Source: Tetracentron sinense (taxonomy: Eukaryota; Streptophyta; Magnoliopsida; Trochodendrales; Trochodendraceae). From it: a DNA stretch of 64,000 bases. The position numbers and the translations under genes are program-made. Below are positions 1,428 through 58,995 of the stretch, piece by piece (position 1 is the stretch's first letter; every line of letters begins with the position of its first letter). The notes under the pieces are model-generated. The model made no database searches and was not told where the DNA came from. It saw nothing but the letters and a program-made list of their open reading frames with translations. The stretch is taken from assembly GCA_015143295.1 (NCBI GenBank), contig CM026570.1, positions 8,580,047-8,644,046 on the forward strand, given 5' to 3'.

Positions 1428-1768
1428 TGTTGAAGATGTATTAGCCAAAATACTAAGCACTTCAATTATCTAAAGCATAAAGCATACATACCAAGCAATA
1501 AGGTTTCACTATAGAGAAAAGAGAAGAAGTAAGGGCTTTATTGATAAAGGAAATATAAACAAAAACAGCCACACTTGTTATTCACGTTTTCACCTCTCTC
1601 ACTATATATATAGGACAAAACTCTTAAGATAAGATAAAGATAAAGTAAGATAAAGACTCCTAAAAGATAACTACAAAAGACTCTTATCAAGATAAACTAT
1701 TTTAACCCTATCCAACTAGACTCTACTTATCTTGTGGATAAGTTAGAGTTTGGTGATGACTTTTAACA
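1428..1768 (-). repeat. Copia 3' LTR (left copy)
   Basis: A 341-bp direct repeat beginning TGTTG and ending TTAACA, matching 6038-6379. I count 9 substitutions and one 1-bp indel between the two copies. All 9 substitutions are transitions. A TATA-like run (tatatatata, near 1602-1611) lies in the LTR and would serve a - strand promoter. The flanking 5-mers, gatcg on the left and aatcc on the right of the element, share only the central atc, so no clean target duplication is seen. Confidence 0.93.
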
Positions 1769-4700
1769 CTCCCCCACAACGCCAAATCTCTACTAATGAC
1801 GCCAAGTGCATCTCTGAACTTTGTGAATTTTGACGAACAAAGCCCTTTTGTGAATATGTCCGCCACCTGCTCATTTGTATTTACTGGCATAAGATCAATT
1901 TCTCCTCGAAGCACTTTTGCTCGAATAAAATGATGATGAACTTCAACATGCTTCGTTCTAGCGTGAAATACTGGATTTTCTGTCAGTCGAATTGCGCTTT
2001 CATTATCGCAATATAGTTTGATCTCATAATTTGTGGTTTGATGCAAATCAAACATTAACTGCATTAACCACGCACTTTCTTGCGCTGCCATAGCTGCAGC
2101 TTGATATTCTGCTTCCGTTGTTGACAAAGACACAGTTGGTTGTCTTTTGCTGCACCAAGAAATAACACCCAAACCAAGACTAAACATATAGCCTATAGTT
2201 GATCTTCGAGTCGAGAGATTACCTGCGTAGTCTGCATCACAGTATCCTACAATTTTGCATTCGACAGCTCTTCCATACCAAACACCAAGATCCATTGTTC
2301 CTTTTACATATCTTAGAATTCTTCGAACAATCTCAAGATGTGGCTTTCTTGGACTATGCATAAATCTGCTCACGACCCCTACTGCTTGAAAGATATCAGG
2401 ACGAGTTAGAGTTAAGTAGATCAAACTTTCCACTAACTGTCTATACATGCAAGAATCTTCAAGTTCTTCAACTTCATCTATACGAACTTTAGTGTTGACA
2501 TCCATCGGCGTAGCCATCGGTTTGCAATCAAACATTCCAAACCGCTTCAACAGGTCACTGGAATATTTTTGTTGACATAAAAATATTTCATATTTATTTC
2601 GATCTATCTCAAGTCCGAGAAAGTGCTTCAGCTCTCCAAGTTCCTTCATCTGAAATCGAATTCCAAGATTCATACGAATTCTTTTAATTTCTTCTAGATC
2701 ATCTCCAGTAATAATCAAATCATCAACATAGACTAGCACAACTGCAACTTTGTCTGTTACAAATTTTACAAACAAACTTGAATCAGTTGGGGCTAGAATA
2801 TAACCACTGATTGTGAGAAACTCAGCAATCTTTCCATACCATGCTCTCGGAGCCTGCTTCAACCCATATAAAGCCATTTTCAATTTGCAAACATATTGAG
2901 GGTAATGAGGATTTTCAAATCCCTTGGGTTGCTCCATATAGATTTCTCGATCTATTTCACCATGAAGAAATGCATTCTTCATATCCATTTGCCACAACCT
3001 CCAATCCTTGCTAGCAGCGATAGCAATCAGAACCCGTACTGTTATTATCTTAGCCACAGGACTGAAAGTCTCATCATAATCTATTCCATACTGTTTTGAA
3101 AAACCCCGGGCAACTAATCGAGCCTTGAATCACTCCACTGAACCATCTGCTCAGGTCTTGATCTTATATACCAATTTGCAAGAAATAGGTTTTATATCAT
3201 CTGGTTTTGGCATTAGATTCCAAGTCTCATTCTGCTTTAAGGCTTGAATCTCATCTGCCATAGCTTCCTCCCATTCAGGAACCCCTCGAGCTTCTTCAAA
3301 TGACTTTGGTTCTTCAATCATCAAATCTTTGCCAATCATTACTTACGCTAGATCTGCATTCACATTCTTTAGTTTCGTCTTTTCAGTTGCATACTTTGGA
3401 TTTGGCTTTGGTACTTGTTGTGACCTCCTTAAGACATGCTCATCTTCTTGTTCAAATTCTTCAAGTTGTGAATGCCAATTTTCTTCTATAACAGTCTGTT
3501 GATAAGTTTCAGTTTTCCAAGGGTTTGCACTAGATGTCATCTGTGACACATCCTCATCAACCTGTACACTTGGTTCAAGTGTCTTCTGATTGGAAGGACA
3601 CTTAAGTCTCTTTTCCTCTTCTAGTTCCTCTTCAAACTTCTGATCAACTGGAAGATCGACATGATCGACGGACCACCATGATGATGACTCATCGAACACA
3701 ACGTTTCTCGACACATGTACTCGATCTGAAGTTGGATCAATACACCTCCAGCCTTTCCTTTCCGAATCGTATCCCACAAAGATACATCGGATCGCCTTCT
3801 TATCAAACTTGCTGCGAAGATGGTTAGACACAAATACATAACTTACACAACCAAATACTCGAAAGTGACTTACTATAGCCTTCATCTCGTACAGCTTCTG
3901 GAAGGGTGAAAGGTACTCGAGCTTTGGTTGTGGGAGGCGATTAATAACATGATTTGCAGTCATCATGCATTCAGCCCAAAAACGAGCTGACACATTTTTC
4001 GAATGTAATAGGCTCCTGCATGTCTCGGCTAGATGCCTGTTCTTCCTCTCTGAGACCCCATTCTGTGGTGCCGTATAGGGACAAGTCAGTAGTCTTCGGA
4101 TACCATACTCTTGTAGATACTTGTTGAACTCTTCTGAAGTATACTCTCCCCCGTTATCCGATCTTAGACATGTTATCTAATGTCTAAGCTTCTTTTCCAC
4201 CTTACTCTTAAGATCCTTGAATTTGTTGAGTACTTCCCCTTTCTCATTTAGGAAGTAAATCTAAGTATATCGAGAGTAATCGTCGATAAATGTGAGCATG
4301 TATTTCATACCTCCAAGTGAAACATCTTTCACTGGACCGAACACATCTGAATGCACCAATTCAAGAGGTTTCTTGACTTGAAACTTCGACTCAGTATAGG
4401 GAAGCTGATGTGCCTTGCCATACTGACATCCTGCACATACTGAATCATCTCAGATCTCCAGATCAGGAAGCCCTTTCAACATGTTCTTCTTCATCATAGC
4501 CTTTAACTTGACAAATCCAACATGAGCAAGCCGAGCATGCCACAAATCAACTGTTTCACTCTTTCGAGTCTTGTCTACATAAGCAGCCTCAGCTGACATG
4601 ACATAGACGGATTCAATTCTTTTGCCTTGCATGATGGGAGTATGTTCGGTCTGCATCTCTTTGTAGATCTTTACAATCGGCTCCGAACACGACGGTGTTT

Positions 4701-23795: not shown

Positions 23796-23913
23796 TCACT
23801 CCATAAATTCACTCTAATCCAAAACCCAACTCCTCTATTCTTCCTTGCCTGATCTGTTTCTAGTTTCTACCTTTGTTTTTTGTATATTTTTTCGCGACAC
23901 AGCTGCTATCGTT

Positions 23914-24816
23914 ATGTCGTCGATTGTATGTCAAGGGCTACAGTCATGTCTCGAGCCCCGGCTTGTCGAACCATGGGCTTTGAGACTCAAACTGGCTTCA
24001 CCTAGACCACATTTTTCTCGATCCGTTGTATGCGCCCGGAGTTTTGGCGTGCCGGATTCTAACACCGAGGAACATCATGATCAAGAGAAGTACCAGAACA
24101 TGATGAGTAGCGATGAAAGCAAGACTGACTGTAACACCAACAGCAACATCTCGAATGGCGATTTGGGTGAGTGGAGCTTCATCCAAGCTCTCACCAACAT
24201 CTCTCAGACTCCTAGAGAAGCAAAGGAGAAAGAAAGCCTCTATGTCCATCCTTTATTTAAGCATTCTTCGTCGACACTTAGCGAGAAAAGCTTGGACTTG
24301 TGCACTGAGAATTTGGGTTGTGAGACGGGTACCGACATTAGCGAAAACAGCGGTTTCTCATCCTCTACATCGGATTCCGAGAGCGGGAAGCCGCCGACGA
24401 GGAAAATCCGACAGCTTTTGGGAAATGGGAAGGTGAATTGTCGCAATTTTCCACCTCCCTTGACATCGATAAGCGGCTCCGGACGTGTTCATGTTAGGTC
24501 TCACCGTGAAGGCGGGCGGTTAGTAGTCAAAGCTGTCACCGTCCCGTCTTCGCACACTTACTTTGAAGCTGAACGAGGCGATGGCCGCCTTCGGCTTCGC
24601 TTTTTGAAGAATTATTCTCCAGAATCCCAAGAAGAAGAAGAAGAAGAGGAGGAGAGTGATGTTTATTTGGGGGAGGAGATGGATGGAAATAATGGGAATA
24701 TTGGTGGTGAAATGACAATTGGAGAGTTTGAAAGGCCAAGCAGGTGCAAGGAAGGTGGATGTGGGAACAAAGGGCTGTTGGATTGGGAGCCTCTTTGGGT
24801 GTCTACTACTTCTTAA
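23914..24816 (+). CDS. FAF: FANTASTIC FOUR (FAF) family protein
   Basis: An intronless frame of 300 residues starts at the first in-frame ATG (MSSIVCQGLQSCLEP), which matches the usual FAF N-terminus; the frame is open further upstream but has no ATG. The plant-specific FAF domain spans residues 179-232: FPPPLTSI, RVHVRSHREGGRLVVKAV and FEAERGDGRLRLRFL. An acidic Glu run follows at about residues 238-246. The middle is Ser-rich and probably disordered. In Arabidopsis, FAF1-4 act in the shoot meristem and vasculature and repress WUSCHEL when overexpressed, limiting meristem size. The biochemical mechanism is unknown. Length and lack of introns fit the family, no lesion is visible, and the gene is probably functional. 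Which of FAF1-4 it corresponds to cannot be told without alignment. Confidence 0.93.
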   Translation: MSSIVCQGLQSCLEPRLVEPWALRLKLASPRPHFSRSVVCARSFGVPDSNTEEHHDQEKYQNMMSSDESKTDCNTNSNISNGDLGEWSFIQALTNISQTPREAKEKESLYVHPLFKHSSSTLSEKSLDLCTENLGCETGTDISENSGFSSSTSDSESGKPPTRKIRQLLGNGKVNCRNFPPPLTSISGSGRVHVRSHREGGRLVVKAVTVPSSHTYFEAERGDGRLRLRFLKNYSPESQEEEEEEEESDVYLGEEMDGNNGNIGGEMTIGEFERPSRCKEGGCGNKGLLDWEPLWVSTTS

Positions 24817-41516: not shown

Positions 41517-41519
41517 CTA
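41517..41519 (-). other. TAG in place of conserved Lys, codon 508
   Basis: The last codon of exon 14 reads TAG before GTGTCA (donor). ANP proteins have Lys here (DEK then AIDLKK), so AAG became TAG by one change. The only nearby alternative donor, GA|GTAGGT, would shift the frame. Translation would end after 507 residues, removing the C-terminal 166. Confidence 0.8.
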
Positions 41520-43849
41520 CTCATCCAGGAAGGCTCTAATTTTTGACTCAGTAACATCATCATCATCCTCGGATACTGATGGCCCAAAAGGAAATGTGAA
41601 GTCGTTGTTCACGGTAACGGACGCTCCAGGGCTTCCAGCAGCCCTATCCACTGGTTGACCAGAAGCCAACTTCATTCTACTTTGTTCCAGTTCCGAACTT
41701 TCATCCAACTTGCATGGCCAATCATCGGAGGGCTCACACATTGGATTAAAACTCTAATTTAAAGAAAAAAAATTCACAACCGGTTAATTACTGAAGCTCT
41801 TAATGCTTAAGGAATCTCTGATCCATGCGAGGGACGTGAAAACAGTTCCTTACCTTATTGAAGTCATCTGACGTCAAAGCAGATTTGAACTTTACTGATC
41901 CACCCACCACAAAATCATCTTTATCATCTATTTGACACATGTCATCTTCACGGTTGCTTGTTCCCCAATAAGATCTTGTTTCTGAGAACTTCTCAGGATA
42001 TATAGTTGAGCACCTCACACTACCCATGTCCTTCAGACCATTGCAAGTTGACTTGGGTCTGACCACAGGATTAATACTGAAGCATCAATAGCCTCTATAG
42101 TCATATTTTTTCAGACACTGTACAATCTTGATAAGTTCCTAAGCCATCAAATGGTAATAATACTTACGAGTTCTTCAGGATTGTCCCAGATGTAAGCAAC
42201 AGGGTTCCAGAATTTCCCTGATGGTAATAAGATTATTGAGACTAACAGAAGAACAGTTGGAAGAAGAATGTAATGCCCCAAATATTATAAAACTTGGTGC
42301 AATTGTACTCACCACAACTGAAGCGTGAAATACAGGATGAGGTTCCCGATATTCCCCAGTAACAAAAGGATGCTGCATGTAATTAGCAGAGCGAGAAATG
42401 AATAATAGGCATAGAAGCTAATTATTAAATCATCAAGCTTTTCACCAGTAATAAAAGAAAGCTGCTTTCTTTGATAGCAGTTGACATATAACAAATCCTG
42501 CAGCTTATCTTTTAAGAATTGATAAGAGGAAATATTTTTCAGTTCACCTGCAACAACTCAGATGCAGCTGGTCTCAAGTTTGGTTCCCTGCAACAGATTA
42601 TGTCAATCTTGCATAGAGTACAACAGAAAAAGAAAAGGCAATAAACATAACTTTAGATTAAAATTTCTTTTTACTTGAAAATTGGAATTCTGAGTGAAAA
42701 TATAGCCATATTACAAACCATTAAAGTATTTTTCTGTCACATTTTCCCTCGATCAACCAAAACTATCAATCTTCAAAGGAAGTTCTGGAAGAGTCAAGCC
42801 TATATAGGCAGTGCTATTTATTGTAACAATTTCAAGCTTCTTACCAGTAAGAGAAAGGATAAAAGTTACTTAGAAAAAGGAAATGATTCACGAGTGCAAA
42901 TGAAATTTGGGATTCTTAGCAGATCGAACAAAATCTATAACTGTGTTATTGATTATTTCCAAAGAAAGAGATGAAAAATATGAAATCATGGATATACTTT
43001 TGTAAACATTTCAGCAGAAAATCCTTTGCCTCGACAGAGAGATGCTCAGGGATGGGGGGATAAGACTTTGTCATCCCGATATGAAAGAGAGCAGCAACCT
43101 GCACAGAACACATGTTGTCATAAATGGGTGACACTACCTTATGAAGTTCGGAAGATTCTAGTGAAATTATACAAAATCTTAATTCTTAAAAAGCAACCGA
43201 AGGGAGGAAAAAAGGTGACAACCAAAGTAGCTTTGAGTGTGTACCTCCTGGTACTGCTGGCTCCAAGGAGGCTTCCCAGTAGCCATCTCGATAACAGTAC
43301 ATCCAACACTCCATATATCGGCAGAGCTAGCAAATTTATTTGGAAACTATTCAGCAAAGTCCCAGTTCATCAAGAGTAATCTGGGTTGATATAGCAACAA
43401 ATGGAAGGCCACCACTATCTATAAAAGACCATCACTAATGCAAAAGCATAACCCGAGATTGTGCAATAAGGAGTGCAAGCATACACTACAAGAGAGCATG
43501 GCCATTAATTTCAATATTGGAAAAATATCCTAGAAGATTTTAATTTTTCTTATTTAATATTTCCATTTTGAAAATCTCCTAAAATTTTAACAATTTTAAA
43601 AGGAGTGTGATATTAAAATGTTCTTTAGAATAATATTTTAGCTATCCAAATAAATAGGCAACAATGTCACAAGACTATTGCTAGAAAGTAGATTTCAATT
43701 TCTGGTGAGCATATTAATTTCCCTTGAAATTAAAAAAAATTTAACCTTTTGTTTTGAGGATTCGGATTCGAGAAAATAAATATGCATGCATATTTCTCAA
43801 GTGAAGTAATTTATGAAGTATGTGGAGTAAAAAGAAACACTACATTTTT

Positions 43850-44060
43850 TTTTTTTATCGGTAATAACAATTTCATTAAAAAGAAGGAAAATTCACAAAT
43901 TGTGAATCACCCAAATACAAAACAAACATCAGGAACTAGCTAACAGACACACAACACAAAACCCTCCCCTGCTGACTCTAGGAAATAAACTCATCAAACC
44001 CTATCTCCGCTAAATCAGATTTAGCGGAGACCCAAACACTACATGCTCTACCAAGAATAC
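43850..44060 (-). mobile_element. LINE 3' tail inside ANP intron 7
   Basis: The + strand shows T(12) then atcggtaataacaatttcat, the mirror of a LINE 3' end with poly-A. Intron 7 is about 3.9 kb, and this is one of at least two LINE scraps in it. Confidence 0.45.
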
Positions 44061-44874
44061 AGACCAGAGAATAAAATATGAAATTATAGAAGAATGTGCA
44101 CATCTAGGAGCAACAAAACTATCGTAAAGCCAGATCACACACCCAATAGTTAGTCAGCTCCTATTAAAGTATTTGTGAAGCAAACAGAAGTGCACCTTTG
44201 CACAAGAAAACATACGGTGGAAGAAGAAGATAGTCCAACAGAACCAACAATCAAAAGGTTAGTGAAATCAGTCAGTCAATTCACAATGTTTTTAATATCT
44301 GTAATTTCTGATTTGGCGAACTCACCTGCGTACTTCGCCGATCTTACACTCACCTCAGTCTTAAACATTATGAGCTCGATCCTCAAGGACATGAGTAATT
44401 CAACGAACCAAAAGCTTGTTTCAAGCTTAAAAATCCCCCATTCCGTCTCTTTTCTTCTACCCTAAAAATTCATTCTTCTAACCTTAAAAACGACCACTTT
44501 TTGCTTTCATTTCATCAAAACACAAATTAGATCTCTATGAAAATCACATATACATGTTTCAATATAAATGTTGTAGATCTTAGTAAATGCTACCCAAAAG
44601 TTTGATTCATAGAACTATGAATTGGTGGTTAAATCCAATAATATGTGACCTTGAATAAGAAGATTTGAATCTTTAGTTTTCATTTTTTCTTTCATAAATA
44701 CAAAATAAATTCACTTAATAAGACTAATACTACTAGTTAGGGTTCATATATGTGTGTGTACCCTAAATCTAATTTTGGGAAATATAGTATCTTTCTAATT
44801 TTTTAATTAAAAAAAAACAATAATCCTTAAATAAAATTGTTGATCTTTAACTTAAATAATAATTATGTGGGATT

Positions 44875-44877
<3 letters not shown>

Positions 44878-44917
<40 letters not shown>
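44878..44917. repeat. (TA)n microsatellite in ANP intron 7
   Basis: About 20 TA units without interruption. Confidence 0.95.
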
Positions 44918-44919
<2 letters not shown>

Positions 44920-44995
44920 TTATTCTATAGATGATCTATTAGATCCATAAACAAATCCTTGTTTCGATATAAAAAAATATTTATTTTATTTTATC

Positions 44996-45298
44996 TTAAA
45001 ATTTAAATGGTAATGATGTAGCACCAAAACAAAATGCAAATAAGAACCTAGCACAAGAACACCTAAACCAAGAATTTCCAACGCATAAGTCACCATCCAC
45101 AAAGTTAGGCAAGAAGATATGAGACCCTGACTCCTCAAAATCATCCATGATTGAGGCCCAAACAATAATGAGATTTCTCATCCGCTGCCTAATCTGGACT
45201 TGGGATAGTGAGCAATCTTCAAAGATACGCATGTTTCTCTCTTTCCAAATGGACCAAGAGATAGCCCTCGAAATCATAGTAACAAATTTTGGGTTCAA
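44996..45298 (-). pseudogene. LINE ORF2 C-terminal fragment in ANP intron 7
   Basis: The frame contains AISWSIWKERNMRIFED followed by a helical segment, the pattern (W.IWKERN.R.F) found after the zinc-binding region of plant LINE reverse transcriptases. No reverse transcriptase core is present. Confidence 0.6.
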
Positions 45299-45939
45299 AA
45301 ATTAGCCTGCAAGGGTTAAGTTGGAAAAAATTGGCAAATTTGGAATAAGCTTGGAAAAATAATAACAATTAATAATTATAAAAATAAGAACGTGATTATT
45401 CGCGTACAATTCGACTGTTCAAGAATAATTTAGCAATTTGGGAAAAGTGTGCCATTTAATACTTTTTTGGGTGACTCGGGTGTCCCCAACCTTTCGGGCT
45501 AGAACTAATCCCCAAGGGTGCAACGCTGACTTACCGAGTGCCAACACCAACAAAGTCTGGGAGTGCAAGCTTGAACATGAGACCATTGCAATGTGTCAGT
45601 GACTCGTGAACCAACCTATCACACACCGTGTATAAAAATGAATTATTCGGGAATAATTTGAGAAATTTGTTACTATGCTCGGAAAGAGAGTCCATAGATG
45701 GTAGCGAGGGCCTAATGAGGCCAAATGCCAACAGGATAAGGGCCAATGGTTGTAATGATAGTTGTAGGAGTAGGACTTTATATAGCTTCTTTTGCACTAT
45801 AATAAGTTTTATTAAAAGAATTCGTTTGTATCTTGGCGTGTCTAAAAACTTTCCTTGCACATTCAAGTGTTTCCTCAATGATTACTTAAATTTGGCCTAC
45901 CAATACACCCACCAATATCATTACTTTGAAGTTTGAACC

Positions 45940-46115
45940 ATGCCTCCTCTCCCCAGTGTTGACACACCGTCACCCATACATGCTAGACTGCTAGTTACTA
46001 CAGCAGGACACCCTCCTCTATAATAACAAGATGTGCAATGATAATTTAAGTTAGTATAAGCTTCAAATGGATCAGTCCTAGCGTTGACACACCGTCACCC
46101 ACACTTTAGTTTCTT
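45940..46115. repeat. Direct repeat of ~19 bp in intron 7
   Basis: gttgacacaccgtcaccca occurs at about 45958 and again at 46084, about 126 bp apart. No known element is assigned. Confidence 0.6.
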
Positions 46116-47535
46116 TAATAACATCAGTGGGCGTGATCACTCCATTGAGAAGTTCTTTAAACTACACGAGTTTCAAAAAAAAGATAAAATAAAGGTGAAC
46201 TATGTGCCTCTCCCATATGTTTGAGAAGCCAAATTCTCAGGTTTTCCTTCAAACGCCTCCAACAATCATCAATCCATAAAGTCTCTACTAGTCAGACTTT
46301 GCTAAACATGCCATTTGATGTTATTGTGACTGCCACCTCAATAACCTCGGAGAGTTAATAAGAACATTTGGAATGGATTATGGACGATTTCAAGGAGTTA
46401 ATTTTCAATCAAAGAAACACGAAACTAGTATGAATCACATAATATTAAAGGTCCGACTACTTTAAGTTGTTTAGACGAACTCAGTTAGCAAGCCCTGAGC
46501 ACCTTTGAGGAGTGAATCTAGCCAATTTCCACACATGAATATTTCATCTTAGCTGTAATTTTCCTTGATACTGAAGTTTCTACCCTAAAAAGCAAGCAAA
46601 GTCCTTTTTCCGTGTATTCTTTTGGGAGCTCCTTATGGCATGAAAGTTTCTGTTTCAAAATATTGATGTCTTAACTTAAAAGACGGAAAAAATTGTCACA
46701 GATAGAAATAAATAAAGCAGCAAAGTAGGAAAAAAAACTGAATATAATAGAATCCTGGTGAATCATAATGTACATAATGATCAATCATGAAGCATATAAT
46801 AAAAGATAATCGTATGATTCTCTTTTTCCATAATAATAACAATCATAACATTGAGAAAAGATCGTTATATAATCCAAGTTATGCTTTATCATGTACATAT
46901 AAGATACTGATTTCAGAAAAATAACAAGCTACAAAAGCAAATTGCTTTGAATAATACATAGTATTTTTTATTACTGGACAAAAGACAATGCCAAAAAGTC
47001 TTAACAGTAAATCGATTGACATGGTGCTTGCATCAATTTCTGAAAGTTCATTATGAGACTTTGAAAGCATACTACATTACCTTAGATCTCAGATGAAGAT
47101 ATTTAGGTTTCAAAAATCCAGTAAGTTCAACCTATACTACTCTCTCAAGGCAGAATAAGACACATTAACTGTTAAAATAGGGGGGAAAGCTGTCATGATA
47201 ATAATTTAGGGTACACCCTTTTTTCCTAAGCACGTTGGAAAAAACAAACTGCATGTATATAATAATATCGAGATGTCTCTTGTGGTCCTTACAAGCTATG
47301 CCCTGTCTGGAGGATGACTTCAGGAGCCATCCAATATGGAGTGCCCTTCACTGACTTAGCACCCGATATAGTAGCCTATGGCAGTTCACAAGCCTCAATT
47401 AGAATGTCATTTCCAAGGAGTGACCTAAAAAAGAAACCAACTACAAAAAGAAAAATAGAAAATAAAAGAGTAAATAATGTTCATACCAGCTCAACAACTT
47501 GCTTCAATGCACCAAAGTCTGCAAGTTTGATGCAA

Positions 47536-47547
47536 CCTTTATTGTTT
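47536..47547 (-). other. Site of a 12-bp deletion in kinase exon 6
   Basis: Exon 6 reads GANNKGCIKLADFG where ANP kinases read GAN-ILVD-NKGC. Four codons after the catalytic-loop Asn197 are missing, in frame. They form the short strand between the catalytic loop and the DFG motif, so ATP/Mg handling should be badly disturbed. Confidence 0.8.
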
Positions 47548-47600
47548 GCCCCCTGAATGTTGATGAAACATGCATTTTATTAGTTTGAAAAAGTGCATAG

Positions 47601-47620
47601 AGAGAGAGAGAGAGAGAGAG
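47601..47620. repeat. (GA)n microsatellite in ANP intron 5
   Basis: About ten GA units between exons 5 and 6. Confidence 0.9.
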
Positions 47621-48354
47621 CACAGATTTTCTTCTCAGCTAGTACTATTTGCAGGAAAGAAATATGCACCTTAATATCCCTGTGCATAATTAAGTTCTTG
47701 TGGAGATATTCCAGCCCTAGTAACAGTTGTTTCGTGTACATTCTTATAACCTGTTTAACAAATGGGTATGGAAACAAACATCAGCATTACAAAACAACAA
47801 AATTCTGCAGTTTGAACAATGGCATTGACTTACAGCCTCGGGGAAGGATCCGAATTTTCCTAAAAGCGCTGAGATGGATCCGCCAGGAACAAATTCCAAT
47901 AGAATATTTAAGGTTCCCTCCTCCCTAGTAGTTCCCAAATATCTCTTGAGGAAAAAAAAAAGAACACAGTTGGACAAGAGACAGCCATCACTTTTTTACC
48001 AAAACACTAGAAGATCATACTCACAACAATGTTTGGACGAGACAGATTCTTAAGAAGCTTCACTTCCTCCTCAAGCTCCCGAATATGAGCCTATTTTAAG
48101 TAAAACATGCAAAGTCAAACAAATCTCAAGAAAATCTTTTGGATATAAAAACAAAATTCAACCACAAAATTCAAGATCTACTAATTTATACCAAGAACAG
48201 TAACTCTGGGAACTCGAATTACAGATCTACTAATTTATACCAATAACACAAGGGATTGAAATAATTAAGGACGAATCAACCACACAAGAACCACAGTCAG
48301 TACCAGGACTTAAATAAAGATCATAACAGTATCGAAACAGTAGAATCTGATCCT

Positions 48355-48684
48355 TGTTAACAACCAACTACTCCAAAAGACCGATCTTATGGAGAGAGTA
48401 GTAACAATGAATATAAGAAGGTCACGGGACAAATGGGGCACGATACGCGACACCCACCAGCGAAGGCGATAAACAACACTCAACACTCCCCCTCACCCAA
48501 AGGGTGGAAAGAATCGAACCCGTGATAAAATCGCAACCAGAGGTCTGATACCATGTTAACAATCAACTACTCCAAAAGACCGATCTTATGGGGAGAGTAG
48601 TAACAATGAATATAAGAGGGTCACGGGACAAATGGGGCACGATTCGCCACACCCAGGAGCGAAGGCGATAAACAACACTCAACA
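48355..48684 (-). mobile_element. TRIM retrotransposon (330 bp) at the intron 2 donor
   Basis: Two 131-bp LTRs (48355-48485 and 48554-48684; TGTTAACAA...CTCAACA) differ at 6 positions. The 68-bp interior holds a PBS (TGGTATCAGA on the - strand, 48544-48553) against the right LTR and a PPT (GGGTGAGGGGGAG) against the left LTR. A perfect 5-bp target duplication, ATCCT, lies at 48350-48354 and 48685-48689. No protein is encoded, so mobilisation would need proteins in trans. The LTR carries no 5S rRNA sequence, so it is not Cassandra. Confidence 0.95.
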
Positions 48685-48689
48685 ATCCT

Positions 48690-48692
48690 CAA
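48690..48692 (-). other. Missing splice donor after ANP exon 2
   Basis: Exon 2 ends AAAGCTCAG (Lys-Ala-Gln, as in the family), but the next bases are TTGAGG instead of GTGAGG-like. The nearest GT starts one base earlier and would shift the frame against exon 3. The TRIM target duplication begins three bases further on, so the splice site region is doubly altered. Confidence 0.75.
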
Positions 48693-49527
48693 CTGAGCTT
48701 TCTCCTTTGAAGCATTTTTCGTGGCAATCAAAACCTAAAATGAGAAACAAGAACAATTTCAAAATCATAGTCCTAAACAATCTAAGAACCCAAATTAAGA
48801 GCCAAAAAAGGAAAAAAGAAACACAAAAATGGACCTGTTTCACGGCTAGAAGCTCGCCAGAATCGAGATTCATCCCCATATAAACTCGACCAAAGGCGCC
48901 ACAACCAATCAATTCGCCTTTTCTCCATCGGATTGGAGGCGCGTTGTCTTTCACGATCGGAGGCAGTGCCGGAGGCAATGGTCTAGAGAAAAGCCCTACC
49001 CTCGATTTCCGAATGCAAGATCCGATCTTCTCAACCATACCTCCAACTCCTCCTTCATCTCCGTCTGAATTTCGGAAAACCAAGGATCGACGAACTGATC
49101 CGAAGATGTATTGCATCACTGGCGTAATTCTTCTTGTTGTTGGTCAGAAAAACGAGGGTTTCTCCTTGATTATGTGCAGTACTGTTCAGAAAATTAGGGT
49201 TCTTTGGGTTTCATTTCTCGATAGCGAGAGTGTGCTTACTGTGGAGACTTGGAAGGAGGGAAAAGGAGGACGTTCTTTTTGAAAGAACAAAAAAAAAAAG
49301 GTGTTTTGCATATCAGCTGCTGTGTTCTATTAGCTTTGCAAATATATTATGATTAAAAGTTTTGTAAATTAACTCATGATTTTGCAACTGTTAGTCCAAT
49401 AACCTAAATTCCTAATTATTTTGCTAGGCTTTCATTTGTTATTGTTAGAAAATGACTATTATGCCCTCATGATATTTATCACTTTACAAGCATTTAACTA
49501 TCCTTGAACTATGGTCAATAAATTTTA

Positions 49528-49998
49528 ACCATTGTGATTAAGATTCCCACCCTTAAGGATAAAGTATCTAACCTTGGTTTAAAAAAAAAAAAAATTAATG
49601 TGTCTCGTTTTAACTCTCTTTAACTTTAGTTAAGATATGCTAACTTTTAGAGTTAAAACATCTAACTTTGGTTTTAAGAGAAAAAAATTAAACGTGTCCT
49701 CTTTGAACTCCCTTTAACTATAGTTAAGATTCATTAACTCTTAGGGATAAAGCATCTAACCTTGATTTTTAGAAAGAAAAAAAATTTAGAAAAAATGAAC
49801 GTGTCTCTTTATGACTCACTTTAACTGTGGTTAAAATTCACTCACCCTTAGGGTTAAAAATCTAACTTTGGATTTTAGAAAAAATAAAATAAAAAAGTTA
49901 ACTTGTCTTTTAACTCCTTTTAACGGTGGTTAAGGTTCACTAATCCTTAAGATTAAAGCATCTTTAAGATGTTCCCTTTCAACTCCCTTCAACCGTGG
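49528..49998. repeat. ~90-bp tandem array in the long-TIR element
   Basis: About five diverged units of the form aactttagttaagattcactaa + cttagggataaagcatctaacc, separated by A-rich spacers. Inverted copies occur at 50455-50610 and a single one near the right end at 57000-57060, so the array is an internal expansion of subterminal sequence. Confidence 0.75.
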
Positions 49999-50613
49999 TA
50001 TCTAATTAAGTTGTGGTGGAAGCTAGAGGAAACAGTTACCTACTGTAGCCGTTGTGGACGATAGAGGAAAGAGTGACATGCTGCTGTTGTAAGTGATGAG
50101 AGAGGCTGCAAAGATGCTGCTGTAGATGGAGGGCGGTGGTAGAGTTGGAGAGAATAGTGGTAGATGGAGGGTATGTAACTTGCCATACACCTAATATAAG
50201 GGAGATAGGTGGAAAGAGGGGCTGAACATGGAGAATGACGGGGTAGTTCCAAAAAGCTCTCCCAAGAGGAACCCTAACCCCGTTTTAACGATTCTACTGA
50301 GGAAGGCCCCATTATATAAATTAAATCATAATAAACTAACTATATAAATCAAATGCATCCAATAGAATTATGAATTCTTCAAAATTCAATTTAGTAGTTT
50401 TTAATTCTATGGAATTCAATTCTGTAGGTCACTTCCAATTCCATAAATAGAAACGTAGCCTAAGGGTTAATAAATCTTAACCACAGTTAAAGGGAATTCA
50501 AAGGGGACATGTTAATTTTTTTTTTCTTTTAAAATTAGGGTTAAATGCTTTAACTCTAAGGGTTAGTGTATCTTAACCTAAGTTAAAGGGAATTAAAAGG
50601 GGCAAAGTTATGT

Positions 50614-50622
50614 TATTTTATT
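50614..50622. repeat. Left 9-bp target duplication of the MULE
   Basis: TATTTTATT directly before the MULE terminus, identical to 56981-56989. Confidence 0.9.
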
Positions 50623-50653
<31 letters not shown>

Positions 50654-50719
50654 GGTAAAATTTCAAGAACCTCCCCTCTTGTTTCGGAAATTACACTGCC
50701 CTCCCCTCAACTTCAATTA

Positions 50720-53070
50720 TTTGTAACAGATACCCCCTTCTGTTAGTTTGCCGTTAGATACATGGATGGACTTTGATGATGTCATGATTTAAATAATTTA
50801 AAATGTCCAAAGTACCCTTCTTAAAGTTAAACGACCTCCCCTAAGTTGGGCAACTCTTAACGACAATAACCCTTCCTCTCTTATCCCTCACCGCATTCCA
50901 ACTTTCACCCATTCTACTCTGCTCCTCACTCATTCACTCAGAGCACTGAACATGGTGCTCCTCAACACCACCTCCTTGTGGGGGGCTTTGATCTGGAGTC
51001 TGGACCATCCAATCTTGTTAAATCTAAGGTGGTTATTCTGCAACTCTTTAAGAGCCAACAAGTGTTTGGATAGCCTGCAATCACTCCAATATTTTTAGAT
51101 GACTGTTCTATAACTTTGAACTTTCACCATAAATCCAGCAGTGAAAAGTGGGTATAGCCCTTTTAACTTTTCCCCACCTAAAGTCCTGAAGCCCAAAGCT
51201 GAAAAGATCAATCCAATGTCTGTAACTTGGTAGATGTGGCTTCAACTGTAAAATGAGCATTAAATATTTGTCTACTTTTGTGTATATACTGAATTGAGTA
51301 GCAAGCACAACACATCAATTTTTGTGCATATACTAATTTTGTTGAATCTTCATCTCGGCATTCAGTTTTAGAATTGAGTAAATTACAATCTAGTCTTCCT
51401 ATACTTGTTTAAATAATATGGTAACTGTACATGATTATAACTTCGGAAATTTTTTCAAACAAACACTATTTGGAGTGTTCCAATTATCGTTGATCAGGTA
51501 CAAGCAAAGTTTGGACAATCAAGTTCTCTGTGTTAAATGCCTTCTTCTTTGCCTTCAGTAACTTTGTATAAACCCTGCTGGATCAATAGAAACAAGATCA
51601 AAAGGCCAATAACGATGAAAATAATAGAGAAGGAACAAACCCCACAAGCAAAGAACTTGTTGTTTAGAATTACAAGGTACTGGGGGTTTTCACTTCTGAA
51701 CACAGAGAGCCCACTTTTCCCTTGTAGCTACTTTTTCAGTCCCGGAAAGCAACCTACTCTCCTTGGGAGCTCCCTCCTCTCCCCTCTAGAGGCTTGATCA
51801 CTTACACATCTTCAGTGATCGGTGATCCAATAAGGGGACACATCCCAACACCATCTTTACCAAGGGATTCCAGCCCTAGAATCAGATGATGGCCTTCTTT
51901 TGTTTGAAAGGTACCCATATAAAATTTTTGAAGTATCACCTAAACATCTACTTTGCCATGAAAAAAATTTGGATTACCATAGTTAAGGTTAAATGAATGA
52001 TCTCTCAACCAAGCCATACCTAACGCTGATCTCTCAACTCATATCACAAAACAGAGTCAACTTTTACTTTGCCATGAAAAAAAAATCTGGATTACCAAGA
52101 ATTTTGAAAGAGCAAGCTAAAGTCAATTGATTTTGTTCATGGCAAAGTAACCAGAGTCTGACAATCTTCTCAGGCATTTAGCTTATGGTTTCCTATTTGA
52201 GTTTAGCATATTTAAAGAGTTTCAAATGGGGTTGTCCATGGCTTCCAACAACATTTTTGCATTGCCAATATAGATGACATGAGTTTAATTTTACTGGCTT
52301 CGGCTCTGGTTCGTACACCCTTCTTTAGATGACATTGAACCTTACTCAATGCATCTGTCATGTGGCTGTATGGCTATTTAACTATCTAAAGTGTGTTTGG
52401 TTGGAAGATTTGGGTACAAAACATAATGCAAAATCTCAAAAAATAAGGCTCTAGAGATCATTTCCTACTCTTGGTTACATGTGAGGGAGTTCATGATGGT
52501 GTAATGAGTAGACTACTATAATTTTTTGGAAGGTATTGTTTAGGCTTCTTCATAAATGAATTTCATACTAATGAGTTCAGGTTCAAGCGTCAGACTTGCT
52601 CAATCCTTATTCTTGTTAGCCTATTGCATGCCCGAACAAAACCAGATGTGTTGCCTGTAGAGTGCATGAATGATCTATCCTGGGTGTTATCCATACATGA
52701 ATCTTCGTAAGATTCTATACCTGTTTATGAGATCATATAGCTGCTTTCATATTTTCATTCATGTCGACACAAATACCATTCGCATTTAATCTCATTAACT
52801 AGCCAATATGTCAAAAAATATACATGTCAAAAAATAAGCATGTTCAAAAGACATCCAATGTATAGAGCTAGAGCCACACAAACAAAAATAATTTGGCATC
52901 TCAGATGCAACATCCAAAAAATATACATGTCCAAATAAACATTTAATCTAAATTATAAAGCCACACAGGCAACAAAAAACATGTGGCCACCTATCCATCT
53001 GACGTATGATATTTGTATAATGTCTAAAAACCAACAGTTTTCCCTCCAAGTTGGCCCTCTCTCCAAGGGT
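50720..53070. other. MULE interior downstream of the transposase
   Basis: 2.3 kb without a recognised gene. Short open frames at 51108-51308 (-) and 51537-51797 (+), and a GC-richer patch at 50880-51060, could be captured host fragments but match nothing I recognise. Confidence 0.35.
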
Positions 53071-53303
53071 ATCAAAACAACTACAAACACAAGCAATTTA
53101 TTATATTAGAAATGTTACAAACATCATCATGCAAATAAGAAAAAAATTGCCTTACAATGCTACTTAGAACAAGTATGATTATATACCTATTTATGTGCAC
53201 CATAGGACATGCTATTAGAACAAATATAGCCCTATACATGAGGTCTCTCTCCCTATATTACACAAAAAGTCAAACATGAGAAATAAATACTTAAAATATA
53301 AAG

Positions 53304-55779
53304 TTATGAATGAGAATGATAAGCAATAAGAAACTTAACAAAGTAATGAATTCTTACTTGGTGTCCTGCATTTGACGATGGTTTGCCTTTGACAGGACCT
53401 CGTTGGCATGTACGTTTGTTGTGTCCGAATTGCTTACAAATGCAACACCTAATAGTGCTTGATCTGCGAGATTGGCTCCCTGGGGTAGGCTCATCTAGTT
53501 CTCTTCTCCTATTTTTCTTAGGTCGACCAGGCAAGCGACGAATGGGTGGAGGTTCTACTACTTCATGATTTCCTACTGGCCACATGCTCTCATCAGATAT
53601 AGGGTGTATGATACCACCATATGCCCTCAAATATGTTGCTTTGGAATAGTACTCATCACAATACTCTTCAAGGTTGGCTCTTTTACGTGCAATACATGCA
53701 GCTGCATGCTTACAAGGAAGTCCAGATATTTCCCAAGCTCGGCAAGCACATGATTTAGCATGAAGATTCACCACAAATCTACTAACACCTTCAGTTACCT
53801 CATACTCCTCACCTCCGGCAAATACAACTATACACATCCTTGAGTCCTGCCTGATGACATTTAATTTTTGTCTTATCTTAGGGGTCACTAAGCTCTCCCA
53901 AGCACATGCTTTATCATACCTACAGTGGATTCTACCCATTAATTTGACCCGTAAAGAATCAACCAAAGTAAGGATTGGTTTGCCCCTAAGATCACCAACC
54001 CACTGATTGAAGGACTCGGTCATGTTATTTGTTACGTGGTCACTTCTCACCCGGGGGTCAAATGCATGCCTAGACCATGAATGCAAAGGTTTTTCGATCA
54101 ACCATTCATAAGCGTCCTTTTTATCTCTCTTCATTTTATCCATAGCAAAATTGAAAACTCTACTATTATATGCTCGAGCAGCAACCCAAAAGTGATTTCT
54201 CAAATTCAACCCTGGAAACTTCTTCTTGAAATTGTTGTATAAGTGTCTACCACATACTCGATGTGTAGCTTCTGGGACAATTTTATTAATGGCTTCCACA
54301 ACACCCTGTAGAAAAGATTTACATCACAAAACTATAAACGTTGAGTACATTTCATATTTGAAAACCAAATTAACATAATAAACATACAATAGACACATTA
54401 CATACCTTTTGTCGATCGGTCATGAAACATAAAGGCATCCGATCTGTATTTGTCCCAATGATACTATGCAGGTAATAGAGAAAAAATGACCAACTTTCCT
54501 TTGTTTCACCCTCCACAATAGCAAAAGCCACGGGGAACAATCCATTATTCCCATCAAGTGCAATGGCTGCTAACAATACCCCACCATATGGGCCCTTTAG
54601 ATGACACCCATCTAATCCTATAAAGGGTCGACATCCTTCTAAAAACCCACTCTTCATGGCTTGAAAACAAATGAAGAACCTCTTGAATGTAGGATTTACA
54701 CTAAGATTGGTTCTATCATATTGAATCTTCACCAAGCTACCAGAGTTTGTCTGTCGAACCATTTCAGCATATACAAGCAACTTATCATATGACTTTTCAT
54801 GGTTACCCTCAATTTCATCCCTTGCTTTCACCCTTGCTCTATACAACTGCATGTTGCTTGGTTCAATCCCATAAGTCTCACGAATTTCAGATCTTATGCC
54901 ATCTATCTTCATATCAGGATTAGCACGCAACCACTTAGCAAGCTTCTTAGCAATCCACGTCGAGGTAGCATTAGTATTCTTAGTACCCCTCACACATGTG
55001 TGCTCAAACTGAAATGTTTTGATCTTAAAAGTTACCCCATCTGGCAAAGGGGATGCATGGATGCGTCATAGACATCCCTCGGCTGAACAATGCGCAGTTA
55101 CCCGTGTTTTCTCATTCTTATCTCTGACAATTTCAAAACCCTCTTGAATGACATAGTCCCTCAAAGCTTCCCTAAACTCTGTCACATTCCCAAACAACAT
55201 GCCCACCTCCAATGAAACCTTTCTACCATCTTGCACTTCAAATTCTTTCCCACACATAAACCTATTAATATCAACACCCTCATCTTCAGAATCAGAATTA
55301 GAGATAAGATCAAAATCATCATTGGATTGGTAATCAGACAACCCATCATTGCTCTCTTTCTCTTCACCATCTAAATCAGATGCAACCATCTCACAAGCAC
55401 CATCACTCCCATTATCAGTACCAACCCTCCATTCATAATCATCATCACTTAACGCATACATTTCATCAAACATCACATCATTACCGATATACATATCCGA
55501 AGCCCTAAGAAAGACATGTATATCTTTTATTCTTTGATATAGCTCGAACATCCGTAACACGTCAGTAGTAGAAGTAACATCCATCAAATCAGCAGACCCA
55601 GGTATAGCACAATGCATGGTGAGTAACAAGCCCACATTGGAAGGTTGGTTCTTCAACACTGCTCCACGAACGTCAGTGAGCATGTCCATGTAATAGTATT
55701 GATTTGGGTCCACTTTCATGATTGTAAAAACCTTGTCCATATAGTGGATAATCAAATCATGCAAACAAATTGAAGACAT
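53304..55779 (-). pseudogene. MURA-like MULE transposase, one in-frame stop
   Basis: Two main exons: 55779-54406 and 54305-53304, joined in phase 0 over a 100-bp GTATG...ACAG intron. Start chosen at the ATG (MSSICLHD) just after a tttcag acceptor. In order: an N-terminal region; an acidic linker; a MuDR DNA-binding region (GMLFGNVTEFREALRDY); the MULE catalytic domain with GLDGCHLKGPYGG and FMTDRQK supplying catalytic Asp residues; a SWIM zinc finger (CACRAWEISGLPCKHA); a zinc knuckle (CCICKQFGHNKRTC). A TGA at 55063-55065 stands where the family has Trp (GCP/L-W-RIHASP), a one-base change. After GHQ a GTAAGA donor near 53357 could join a tiny last exon ending at 53072. Otherwise the gene looks intact. 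Confidence 0.9.
54306..54405 (-). other. Intron of the MULE transposase gene
   Basis: 100 bp, GTATGT...CTACAG, phase 0 between TDRQK and GVVEAINK. It lies within the conserved catalytic domain, which supports the joined reading. Confidence 0.85.
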
Positions 55780-55799
55780 TGAGACCTGAAAGAAGTTAC

Positions 55800-56890
55800 A
55801 AAAGCCCAATTGCATGGTCAGTGATCAAAACAACAACCTGTAATTTTTTTTTATGCTTGTGAAATCTAAATTTTGATCACAAAGAACAATTTTTAAATTA
55901 AATATATATATATCACAGAAGTTTTCAAGACTATTTCCAACAAATTAGATCTCAAACTCATCTAGCTTCAAATGGAGTTATAACTATCAATATCCAGGTT
56001 GGGTATCCCACAACCTAATGACTCTTGAAGGTTTCAAGCTTAATTTGAAACAAAAACAAGACTATACTCTGTTTTTAACCTGTGCATAGCATTATAACAA
56101 TCAACAGATGCATGCTACGTCCACTGGGAAATGATGAAATCTTATTAATAATGCATTAGTATAGTAAAAACATCAAAATTTAGAGCAGCATGAATGAAGC
56201 AGGTGCATATATCCCGCAATAGCACATTATCAAGCAATGGCAAACTCTTGTAGTGGTCTATAGTGCCGCTAATAGGGTTGTAGCCTAACCACATTGCCTA
56301 CCCCCCAAAATAAATGACATTGCTTTGTATACAAAGTTTCAGGAAAATGAATTCCTAATATCTAAGCATAGAGAAGAAGTTGAGAGATTGGCATTCAAGG
56401 CAAAAACAATGCAATAACTAAGAAACTTGAGAGATTGGCAACCCTACTGTTAATTTCGAATTCACAGTGGGTTCATATCAAGGATCCAGAAATTTCCATG
56501 GCAATAACTTAGAGACATTAGAGATTTCACCTATCAACATCCAACGTTCTAAGTATTCCTTCACTGCAAACCGTGGTTGGAAAACTTGCTTCCCAAGATG
56601 ATGAATCCGCCCAAGACGATGAACCCTCCCCTCTTGCAAACCCGTAATAGAGAAGAAGTTGTGCAGTGAGAAGAGGGCAATAGACCGTGAGAGCCTTTGA
56701 TGAGATACGTGAGAGAAACAAGATGAAGAGAAACCCTAGATAGGTTTTCTAGTTTGAAGATACACACTCCTGTTATATTCCCGCTGAAATGCTGGGGACA
56801 TTTGGGTTTTCTTAAGTATGTGTTTGCTAGAGTAATGAGGGCTAAAATTGTAAAAGATTATAATCCGTTAACGACATTAACCCAATTAGC
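55800..56890 (-). promoter_or_regulatory. MULE 5' region (leader and promoter)
   Basis: Non-coding DNA between the transposase start and the right TIR. A tttcag acceptor at 55785-55790 suggests a leader intron. No TATA box can be assigned firmly. Confidence 0.4.
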
Positions 56891-56980
56891 CTGACAGGGG
56901 AGGTCAATGTAATTTCAGAAACAAGAGGGGAGGTTTCTGAAATTACACCAAACCTCAGGGGAGGTGAGTGTAATTTACCC

Positions 56981-56989
56981 TATTTTATT
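56981..56989. repeat. Right 9-bp target duplication of the MULE
   Basis: TATTTTATT, identical to 50614-50622. Confidence 0.9.
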
Positions 56990-57253
56990 TTATTTTATTT
57001 TAAACCAGGGTTAGATGCTTTATCCCTAGCTAAAGGTGTGAATCTTAATCACAAGGGTTAAAGCTTATTAACCATAGTTCATGGTTAGTGAGGTTATGAA
57101 ATATCATAAAGGCATAATAGTCATTTTCCTAACAATAAGAAACGTAAGGCTAACAAAACTAAGGATTGAGGTTGTTTGTCTAACGGTTGCAAAACCATGA
57201 TATCAGTGTAATTGCAAAGCTGGTAGAACACAACAGCTGATATGCAAAAACCC

Positions 57254-58008
57254 AAAAAAAATAAAAAATCATAATGATTATTATACAGTCTAGTATCAAA
57301 GAAAATGTATGAAAAAAATACAAGGAGTCAAATACGGTCGATCAACGGTATATAAATTGTGGAGCCCCATTTTCCAATTTGGATGGCCTCACTTAATGAT
57401 TAGCGTTTGAGATTAATGTGATAGGCCTTCCTTGCTTCTTGTCTCAACACTTGAATTTTTTTGTACCCAAAAACTCGAGCTTCTGACCAATGTTACTTGG
57501 TTCGCTTGGTTCAAATTCGGGTTGACAATTAATTCGCAATTCGCCACTCTAGAGTGAAACCAGTTCGCTAGGGGTAGGATGAGTTAATTCGTTTCTCGAT
57601 TCACTTAAGTTATTTAGTTTGGTCCATTAACATGGTTCGCTTCTATGATATTATTACATATATATTTTAATCATGCAAAAAAAATTACAAATACTTATTT
57701 TAAAAAAAGTATCAAAAATATGTTTATAAATGGTTTGCCAATTCAGAAGTTAAATTCGTCGAACTAAAAGTATAAGTTTGCTGAACTTAAATAACAAATT
57801 CGATGAACTCAAACAAAAAATTCGTTGAACCAAAGCTATTGGCTTTGGGTATAGGGTTCGCTCATTTCCAAGAACTCAAACGAATTGAATAGTGAACTGG
57901 TTCGCTTCGAACCATTTCGCGGTTTGTTCTAGTAGGTCGCAAATTAGGTAATACTGCTTCCGACCACTGTGTTGACAAGATACCAATTTCAATAATTTTA
58001 GGCGGATT
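57254..58008. other. DNA formerly upstream of the ANP gene
   Basis: Before the insertion this sequence would have joined the ANP 5' region at about 49299, so it may hold the displaced promoter. It also has TTCG-rich decayed repeats (aattcgtcgaact, ttggttcgcttggttc) at 57500-57950. Confidence 0.35.
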
Positions 58009-58202
58009 TAACCCACCAGGGGTTAGTGCAGTTGGCTAGTGTCTAGGGTTTGCTCCCTGTGGTCGTATGTTCAACTCCAGCTCCTCGACTTATCTTGGTA
58101 TCCGTAGGTAAAATTTTGAGTGACCGGGTTGGTGCGGATACCTAAAGGGACTAGTCCTTGCTCGAAGGGTTTGGGACACCCTCTATTACCCAAAAAACAA
58201 AA
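58009..58202 (+). mobile_element. tRNA-derived SINE
   Basis: A pol III A box (TAGTGCAGTTGG, 58024-58035) and a B box (GTTCAACTC, 58069-58077) lie 34 bases apart, as in tRNA-like SINE heads. An unrelated body follows and the element ends in an A-rich tail (cccaaaaaacaaaa). It is not a tRNA gene because no cloverleaf can be drawn. No target duplication was resolved. Confidence 0.65.
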
Positions 58203-58995
58203 TTATCCACGGCACTCTTAAAAGCAAACTCCAGCAATTATCAGGTAACATCTCTTCCTCAAATTCGACATACGAATGAGCCTTCTTTTATTTGGAGGAC
58301 AATGAGTATTTGAGTTCCTTTTTAGACATGAGTGCATTTGGCATCACTCCCAATGAATAATTCTCTATTTCCTGGGAATAGAAACTTGTGATGGGCCTAA
58401 TTAATGTGGCGAAAAATGTTTCTCTGTCTCTTCTCCAACTCTCCAAAGTAAAACAAAACAAAGCAGACTAACCATATTTGGATATACTTCTTTGAGAATA
58501 AAATTTTCTTCGAGAGTTACTTCCTTGGAGGAAGTAAAAGCAACTCCTGGAAAAATATGTTAATATCAATCTCAAAACGAAACAAAAAAAGATTGCTACA
58601 AGTCATACGATTAGGCCACAACCCCAATTAGTAGTGTTAGTATATGTTCTAGGATAGTGCGTTAATGCCTAACATTTCAAGCTTGGGTAGAGAGTGGATA
58701 TTACAACCATCGCACCCCCTCGAGGCTCAATCCCAGAACCTACCCTCTTTGGGGGAGACACACTACCATTGGCACATGTTGTTTAGTTTGCACATGCAAA
58801 AATCTACCTTGTAAACCAAGGTCCACCATATGTCGGCCACACTCAGTAGTAGTGATAAATCAGAATCGCTGCAATTAGACGACCCTTACCCATTTGATTT
58901 ATTGAATTTAATCAGTTGGTCAAGAGAATTTGGCAATTGGTCTCAGTTATAGTCTATTGAAATTACATCTGGGCCTTGGAGTTTGGACATGAATA
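58203..58995. other. Intergenic DNA, nothing recognised
   Basis: No gene or clear repeat border. Confidence 0.4.

Follow-up and report, generated by a model that had tools for sequence, protein, structure and literature searches.

Among described plant transposons, the MuTAnT family of Medicago truncatula comes close in kind to the family of the outer of the two elements described here, with sequences compared at the tips only. MuTAnT elements have modular long terminal inverted repeats (TIRs), make 9-nt duplications, include short non-autonomous copies, and enter repetitive targets that hide the duplication, often near genes; the outer family is like them in these respects (PMC4486113). The same source gives 9-bp duplications as typical for MULEs (PMC4486113). 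It also describes MuTAnT tips as GGGG/CCCC, variable between copies, and MuTAnT targets as (TA)n microsatellites (PMC4486113); the tips of the outer family are mostly GGGG, with GGTG and GGG in the copy described here, whereas its sites are A/T-rich, with a TA repeat at only one of 16 (L028). The FARE or foldback-type MULEs of Arabidopsis, named in the same account (PMC4486113), resemble the outer element by description, in their long inverted ends and repeated modules. Likewise by description, the inner element is like the autonomous-type plant MULEs (MuDR/mudrA and Jittery) in its DBD_Tnp_Mut, MULE and SWIM domains, its transposase intron and its 9-bp duplications; it is unlike them in that its coding frame is interrupted and its TIRs align over 85 bp only. 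Both transposons are further members of already known kinds.

In the window, by which we mean the whole 64,000-nucleotide stretch analysed (G000:C20:8580047-8644046, within a searched genome of 1.16 Gb in 1,479 contigs, that of a plant as judged from genes and elements), one of these elements lies within the other, next to an ANP-like MAPKKK gene copy. We consider it very probable that the locus results from two separate cut-and-paste insertions, the outer first and the inner later, beside a gene copy that is recently failing. The inner element comprises the following features.

50623..56980, minus strand (that of the transposase): inner MULE, 6,358 bp, from its TIRs, transposase domains and C4 copy
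50614..50622, no strand: left target duplication, TATTTTATT, 9/9 match to the right copy
56981..56989, no strand: right target duplication, TATTTTATT, 9/9 match to the left copy
55069..55824, minus strand: transposase fragment with the MuDR DNA-binding domain (PF03108, DBD_Tnp_Mut), from domain search
54370..55065, minus strand: transposase fragment with the first part of the MULE domain (PF10551), from domain search
53304..54323, minus strand: transposase fragment with the end of the MULE domain and a SWIM zinc finger (PF04434), from domain search

The original prediction of a MULE at 50623-56980 with a perfect target duplication holds: TATTTTATT matches at all nine positions, and the TIRs are identical at 77 of 85 positions without gaps (score 65, against a best of 17 in 200 shuffles). 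The length of this duplication and the transposase domains make the inner element a MULE. Its transposase frame is not intact, which bears on autonomy: an in-frame stop at 55066-55068 lies between the fragments at 55069..55824 and 54370..55065, and an intron with GT and AG ends precedes the third, splitting the MULE domain match, such that PF10551 is spread over two pieces, of which the end at 53304..54323 alone scores below Pfam's cut-off. Further copies exist elsewhere in the genome. The one on C4 is 99.1% identical across all 6,358 bases and has its own duplication, TATATTTTA, on both sides, and the one on C14 aligns in two blocks, at 97.1% and 99.0%, with about 600 bases between them absent, and is flanked on both sides by TTTCTATTT; both of the further copies read thus bear 9-bp duplications. 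Seven family members, including that of the window, are at least 97% identical among the best 40 of 3,093 TIR candidates. The family has been active recently. In the three copies read (window, C4 and C14), the transposase frames are each interrupted differently. We tried the divergence between the two inner TIRs as a measure of the age of the insertion and rejected it: each window TIR is 90.6-91.8% identical to the opposite TIR of the C4 copy, the same as to its own partner (77/85), and the left-right difference was therefore inherited. The papers listed in a literature search with the first letters of the inner TIR all have biomedical titles. Many contigs also bear a second MULE family, whose identity to the inner transposase piece is about 35%, with many 902-codon open frames among the matches listed.

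The outer element and its flanks are as follows.

49300..57253, no strand: outer long-TIR non-autonomous MULE-type element, from TIR alignment, internal repeats, family copies and 9-bp duplications
49300-50622 and 56990-57253, no strand: arms of the outer element, with the inner insertion in between
49300..49579, plus strand: left TIR, from TIR alignment
56990..57253, minus strand: right TIR, from TIR alignment
49291..49299, no strand: left flank AAAAAAAAA, putative 9-bp duplication (8/9), an A run of low information
57254..57262, no strand: right flank AAAAAAAAT, putative 9-bp duplication (8/9), from flank comparison

Without the inner MULE and one copy of its duplication, the outer element measures 1,587 bp. 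Of the 255 aligned positions of its TIRs, 220 are identical, and the alignment has 39 gap positions (score 104.5, where 200 shuffles reached 14 at best); it begins four bases inside, and the ends at 49300 and 57253 were fixed from other copies of the family. Inside the element lie direct repeats at a spacing of about 94-107 bp, and its middle, 49970-50459, ends in a dispersed repeat and has its nearest sister, a partial one, on C11. The best 40 of 1,768 candidate places in the genome gave 42 TIR matches, the closest other than the window reaching 83-84% identity; the family is large. Twenty loci were picked from the 42 matches and fetched, and 17 of them have paired, opposed TIRs, enclosing elements of about 1.2-2.5 kb per copy; L017, L024 and L025 have a single TIR each and contribute no duplication row.

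The family copies are informative as to target duplications. From 19 elements we retained 16 distinct sites, dropping L021, whose duplication is that of L013, and two of three L018 copies, whose flanks are the same; for L020, one of two alternative starts was taken. Flanks agree at eight or more of nine positions at 12 of the 16 sites and perfectly at seven, as against 11 and one, respectively, of 240 mispaired flanks; a convincing duplication is absent at four sites. This difference between true and mispaired flanks shows that the family, on inserting into A/T-rich DNA, duplicates 9 bp of it, and these duplications, together with the long TIRs, would place the outer element in the Mutator superfamily. 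At the window copy itself, the A-rich flanks do match at eight of nine positions (AAAAAAAAA and AAAAAAAAT), exactly as had been counted, with little information in an A run: when paired with the opposite flanks of other copies, they match at eight or more positions in six of 32 mispairings. We therefore rejected these flanks as evidence standing alone. With offsets left free they reach 9/9 (CAAAAAAAA), in a pair that does not abut both ends. At L018:297-5691, the outer family has three copies that share their flanks; they follow one another in direct order, about 2.1 kb apart, and are probably a local multiplication of one insertion.

That one transposon sits inside another, as originally proposed, is borne out by sibling copies from the same genome. 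All 20 fetched outer-family loci align across the inner insertion point with at least 40 bases on each side, and for each of them at least one junction-spanning alignment reaches position 1582 or beyond of the 1587; repeats in the outer arms give several alignments per locus, some of them to the opposite arm. The joined arms, 49300-50622 and 56990-57253, are continuous in every sibling fetched, and the inner element is therefore the later insertion. One could instead imagine a single composite that moves as a whole from 49300 to 57253, the MULE being the coding core of an autonomous member of the outer family, and the two nested sets of ends, in families that both make 9-bp duplications, speak for it. 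Yet the inner unit bears its own duplication within the outer one, a copy at 99.1% identity sits elsewhere between other flanks, and the outer family is unbroken at the insertion point in 20 of 20 loci, which leaves such a composite hardly credible. The nested insertion is real, in its order and inner duplications as in the two families that make it up. Such nesting is ordinary for plants, and MULE transposition of the usual sort is the best reading of each insertion. The locus is a clean case, in which nesting can be proved inside one genome by means of insert-free siblings, a near-identical recent relative and a paralogue with an unbroken flank, the last with modest support.

The neighbouring gene, taken originally as an ordinary kinase gene, fits that description poorly, as several apparently disabling changes are present.

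41518..49116, minus strand: ANP-like MAPKKK gene copy, from start codon to premature TAG (41518-41520), from paralogue alignments and the kinase domain
48692, minus strand: first base of the intron-2 donor, a T (GT to TT); G in C16, C8, C10 and C19
47543..47544, minus strand: site of a 12-nt in-frame deletion in the catalytic loop, from paralogue comparison
48355..48684, minus strand: TRIM-like element with two LTRs, in intron 2, with a 5-bp duplication, AGGAT, at 48350-48354 and 48685-48689

The copy in the window (on C20) was compared with paralogues on C16, C8, C10 and C19, exon by exon for C16 (exons 1-11) and C8 (exons 1-7), and as aligned stretches only for later exons. The name ANP was carried over from the original prediction and is presumably apt; among PDB chains, one named MAP3K2 is matched by the C16 copy (1.2e-73). 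The kinase domain (Pkinase) is found at 4.8e-57 in the window copy, as against 1.2e-67 in C16. Besides the lost donor, four codons after GAN that are present in C16 and C8 are missing from its catalytic loop, H is replaced by R in the LSHPNIV stretch and S by L after DFGA, and a later exon ends with the premature TAG in place of the AAG seen in C16 and C10; exon-like matches run on past it to about 39571. Neither a stop nor a lost donor was found in C16 across exons 1-11 or in C8 across exons 1-7. The TRIM-like, LTR-type element starts with base nine of intron 2, and TGGTATCAGA, which follows its first LTR, is a putative primer-binding-like sequence. The ANP-like copy on C19 (L050-L051) aligned from mid exon 1 only and has an exon-3 donor without GT, and for these reasons looks broken too.

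Over exons 1-7, dN/dS is 0.131 between the window copy and C16, 0.086 between the window copy and C8, and 0.072 between C16 and C8. An excess of nonsynonymous changes in the window copy (11/33, against 13/62 in C16 and C8 together) is not significant (Fisher p 0.22). The indels seen in its aligned exon stretches are in frame, which fits a gene that worked until recently; low dN/dS and in-frame indels together argue that the copy was under selection for most of its history, and its failure looks recent. Since it has lost the donor and catalytic-loop codons and gained a nonsense codon, changes that should disable it, the window copy is best read as a recently failing duplicate.

What the outer insertion may have done to this gene depends on the DNA at either side of it.

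49117..49299, minus strand: retained leader of the ANP-like gene, alignable as far as 49264 (C16) and 49217 (C8), with a six-codon upstream ORF
57263..57345, minus strand: stretch aligning with the C16 DNA directly upstream of the leader, a possible displaced proximal promoter, from the C16 alignment
57254..57485, no strand: rest of the upstream DNA, its only genome match being itself, from genome search

The start codon begins at 49116, and the distance of 184 bp given earlier between it and the outer element is therefore right. The paralogues C16 and C8 are without an outer insert at the leader; C19, which is alignable from mid exon 1 on, and C10, which is more distant, were for these reasons kept out of the leader test. 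The DNA upstream in C16 aligns with 57263-57345 at a score of 53, which none of 1,000 and none of 10,000 dinucleotide shuffles attained and which one of 1,582 real genomic pieces equals, and when the window is cut into 256-base tiles, this place scores highest. Against C16, a score of 164 is obtained with the joined window sequence and of 143 with the actual neighbour, the transposon arm; the joined alignment is gapped in the T run, and without the A/T run the C16 alignment scores 43, reached by one of 10,000 shuffles. On the other hand, the upstream DNA of C8 has no match to window DNA beyond the break (equalled by 854 of 1,000 shuffles), nor does the DNA upstream of the leader in C16 align with that in C8 (equalled by 395 of 1,000). 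The predicted continuity from 49299 to 57254 accordingly stands in part, modestly in C16 and not in C8: it may be that 57263-57345 once adjoined the leader and was split off by the outer element, a reading with modest support from one paralogue. To call everything from 57254 onward former promoter DNA was too strong. Only the 232 bp of 57254-57485, for which a search that skips common words found no other genome match, look single-copy beyond 57253 before other repeats begin: a dispersed repeat of about 470 bp at 57486-57959 (the window being among the best 40 of 2,417 candidate places), and one of about 190 bp at 57985-58205 (among the best 40 of 2,450), SINE-like by eye. The C16 paralogue has an outer-family copy of its own at a different place, L044:5317-6713, about 3.2-4.6 kb upstream of its start codon, and short outer-family pieces lie upstream of the C10 copy.

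We propose that a non-autonomous long-TIR MULE entered an A/T-rich tract bordering the leader on its 5' side, parting the leader (49117-49299) from the upstream DNA that resumes at 57254. Afterwards a second MULE, 6.36 kb long and from another family with recent activity, entered the repeated inner part of the outer element, duplicating TATTTTATT. Transcription of the gene copy may have been affected by the outer insertion, and that this insertion displaced a putative promoter is modestly supported by the alignment with C16. Perhaps instead the outer element landed outside the working promoter, with the core promoter and start within the retained 183 bp and little regulatory effect; the leader can indeed be aligned with C16 and C8 almost as far as the A/T run, with DNA further upstream poorly conserved. 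Against this, three paralogues keep an upstream ORF of six codons at about -100, reading MKPKEP in the window copy and in C8 and MKPKHH in C16, which points to transcription of much of the 183 bp as leader, and C16 retains some DNA past the break, which makes a landing outside the promoter somewhat unlikely. In the window copy the transposon end contributes a further upstream ATG at -195.

A causal chain could also be drawn from displacement of the promoter, in which the outer insertion cut this duplicate off, loss of expression relaxed selection, and the donor, catalytic-loop and nonsense changes followed. We hold this chain to be doubtful; if true, the locus would record how a transposon set off the loss of one gene from a redundant kinase set, and with the events dated it could provide a small test of whether promoter insertions start duplicate loss or pile up at genes already failing. 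Could the copy still be functional, driven by a transposon arm or by read-through? Its long purifying selection and in-frame indels would suit such a gene, but the lost intron-2 donor, the missing catalytic-loop codons and the premature TAG, set against the compared exons of C16 and C8, render it improbable, and a recently failing duplicate remains our preferred reading.

Elsewhere in the window, minus-strand frames at 1723-4176 resemble, by eye, integrase and reverse-transcriptase parts from a copia-type retrotransposon, and a plus-strand frame at 23818-24816 encodes a Fantastic Four meristem regulator domain (PF11250, 2.7e-22).
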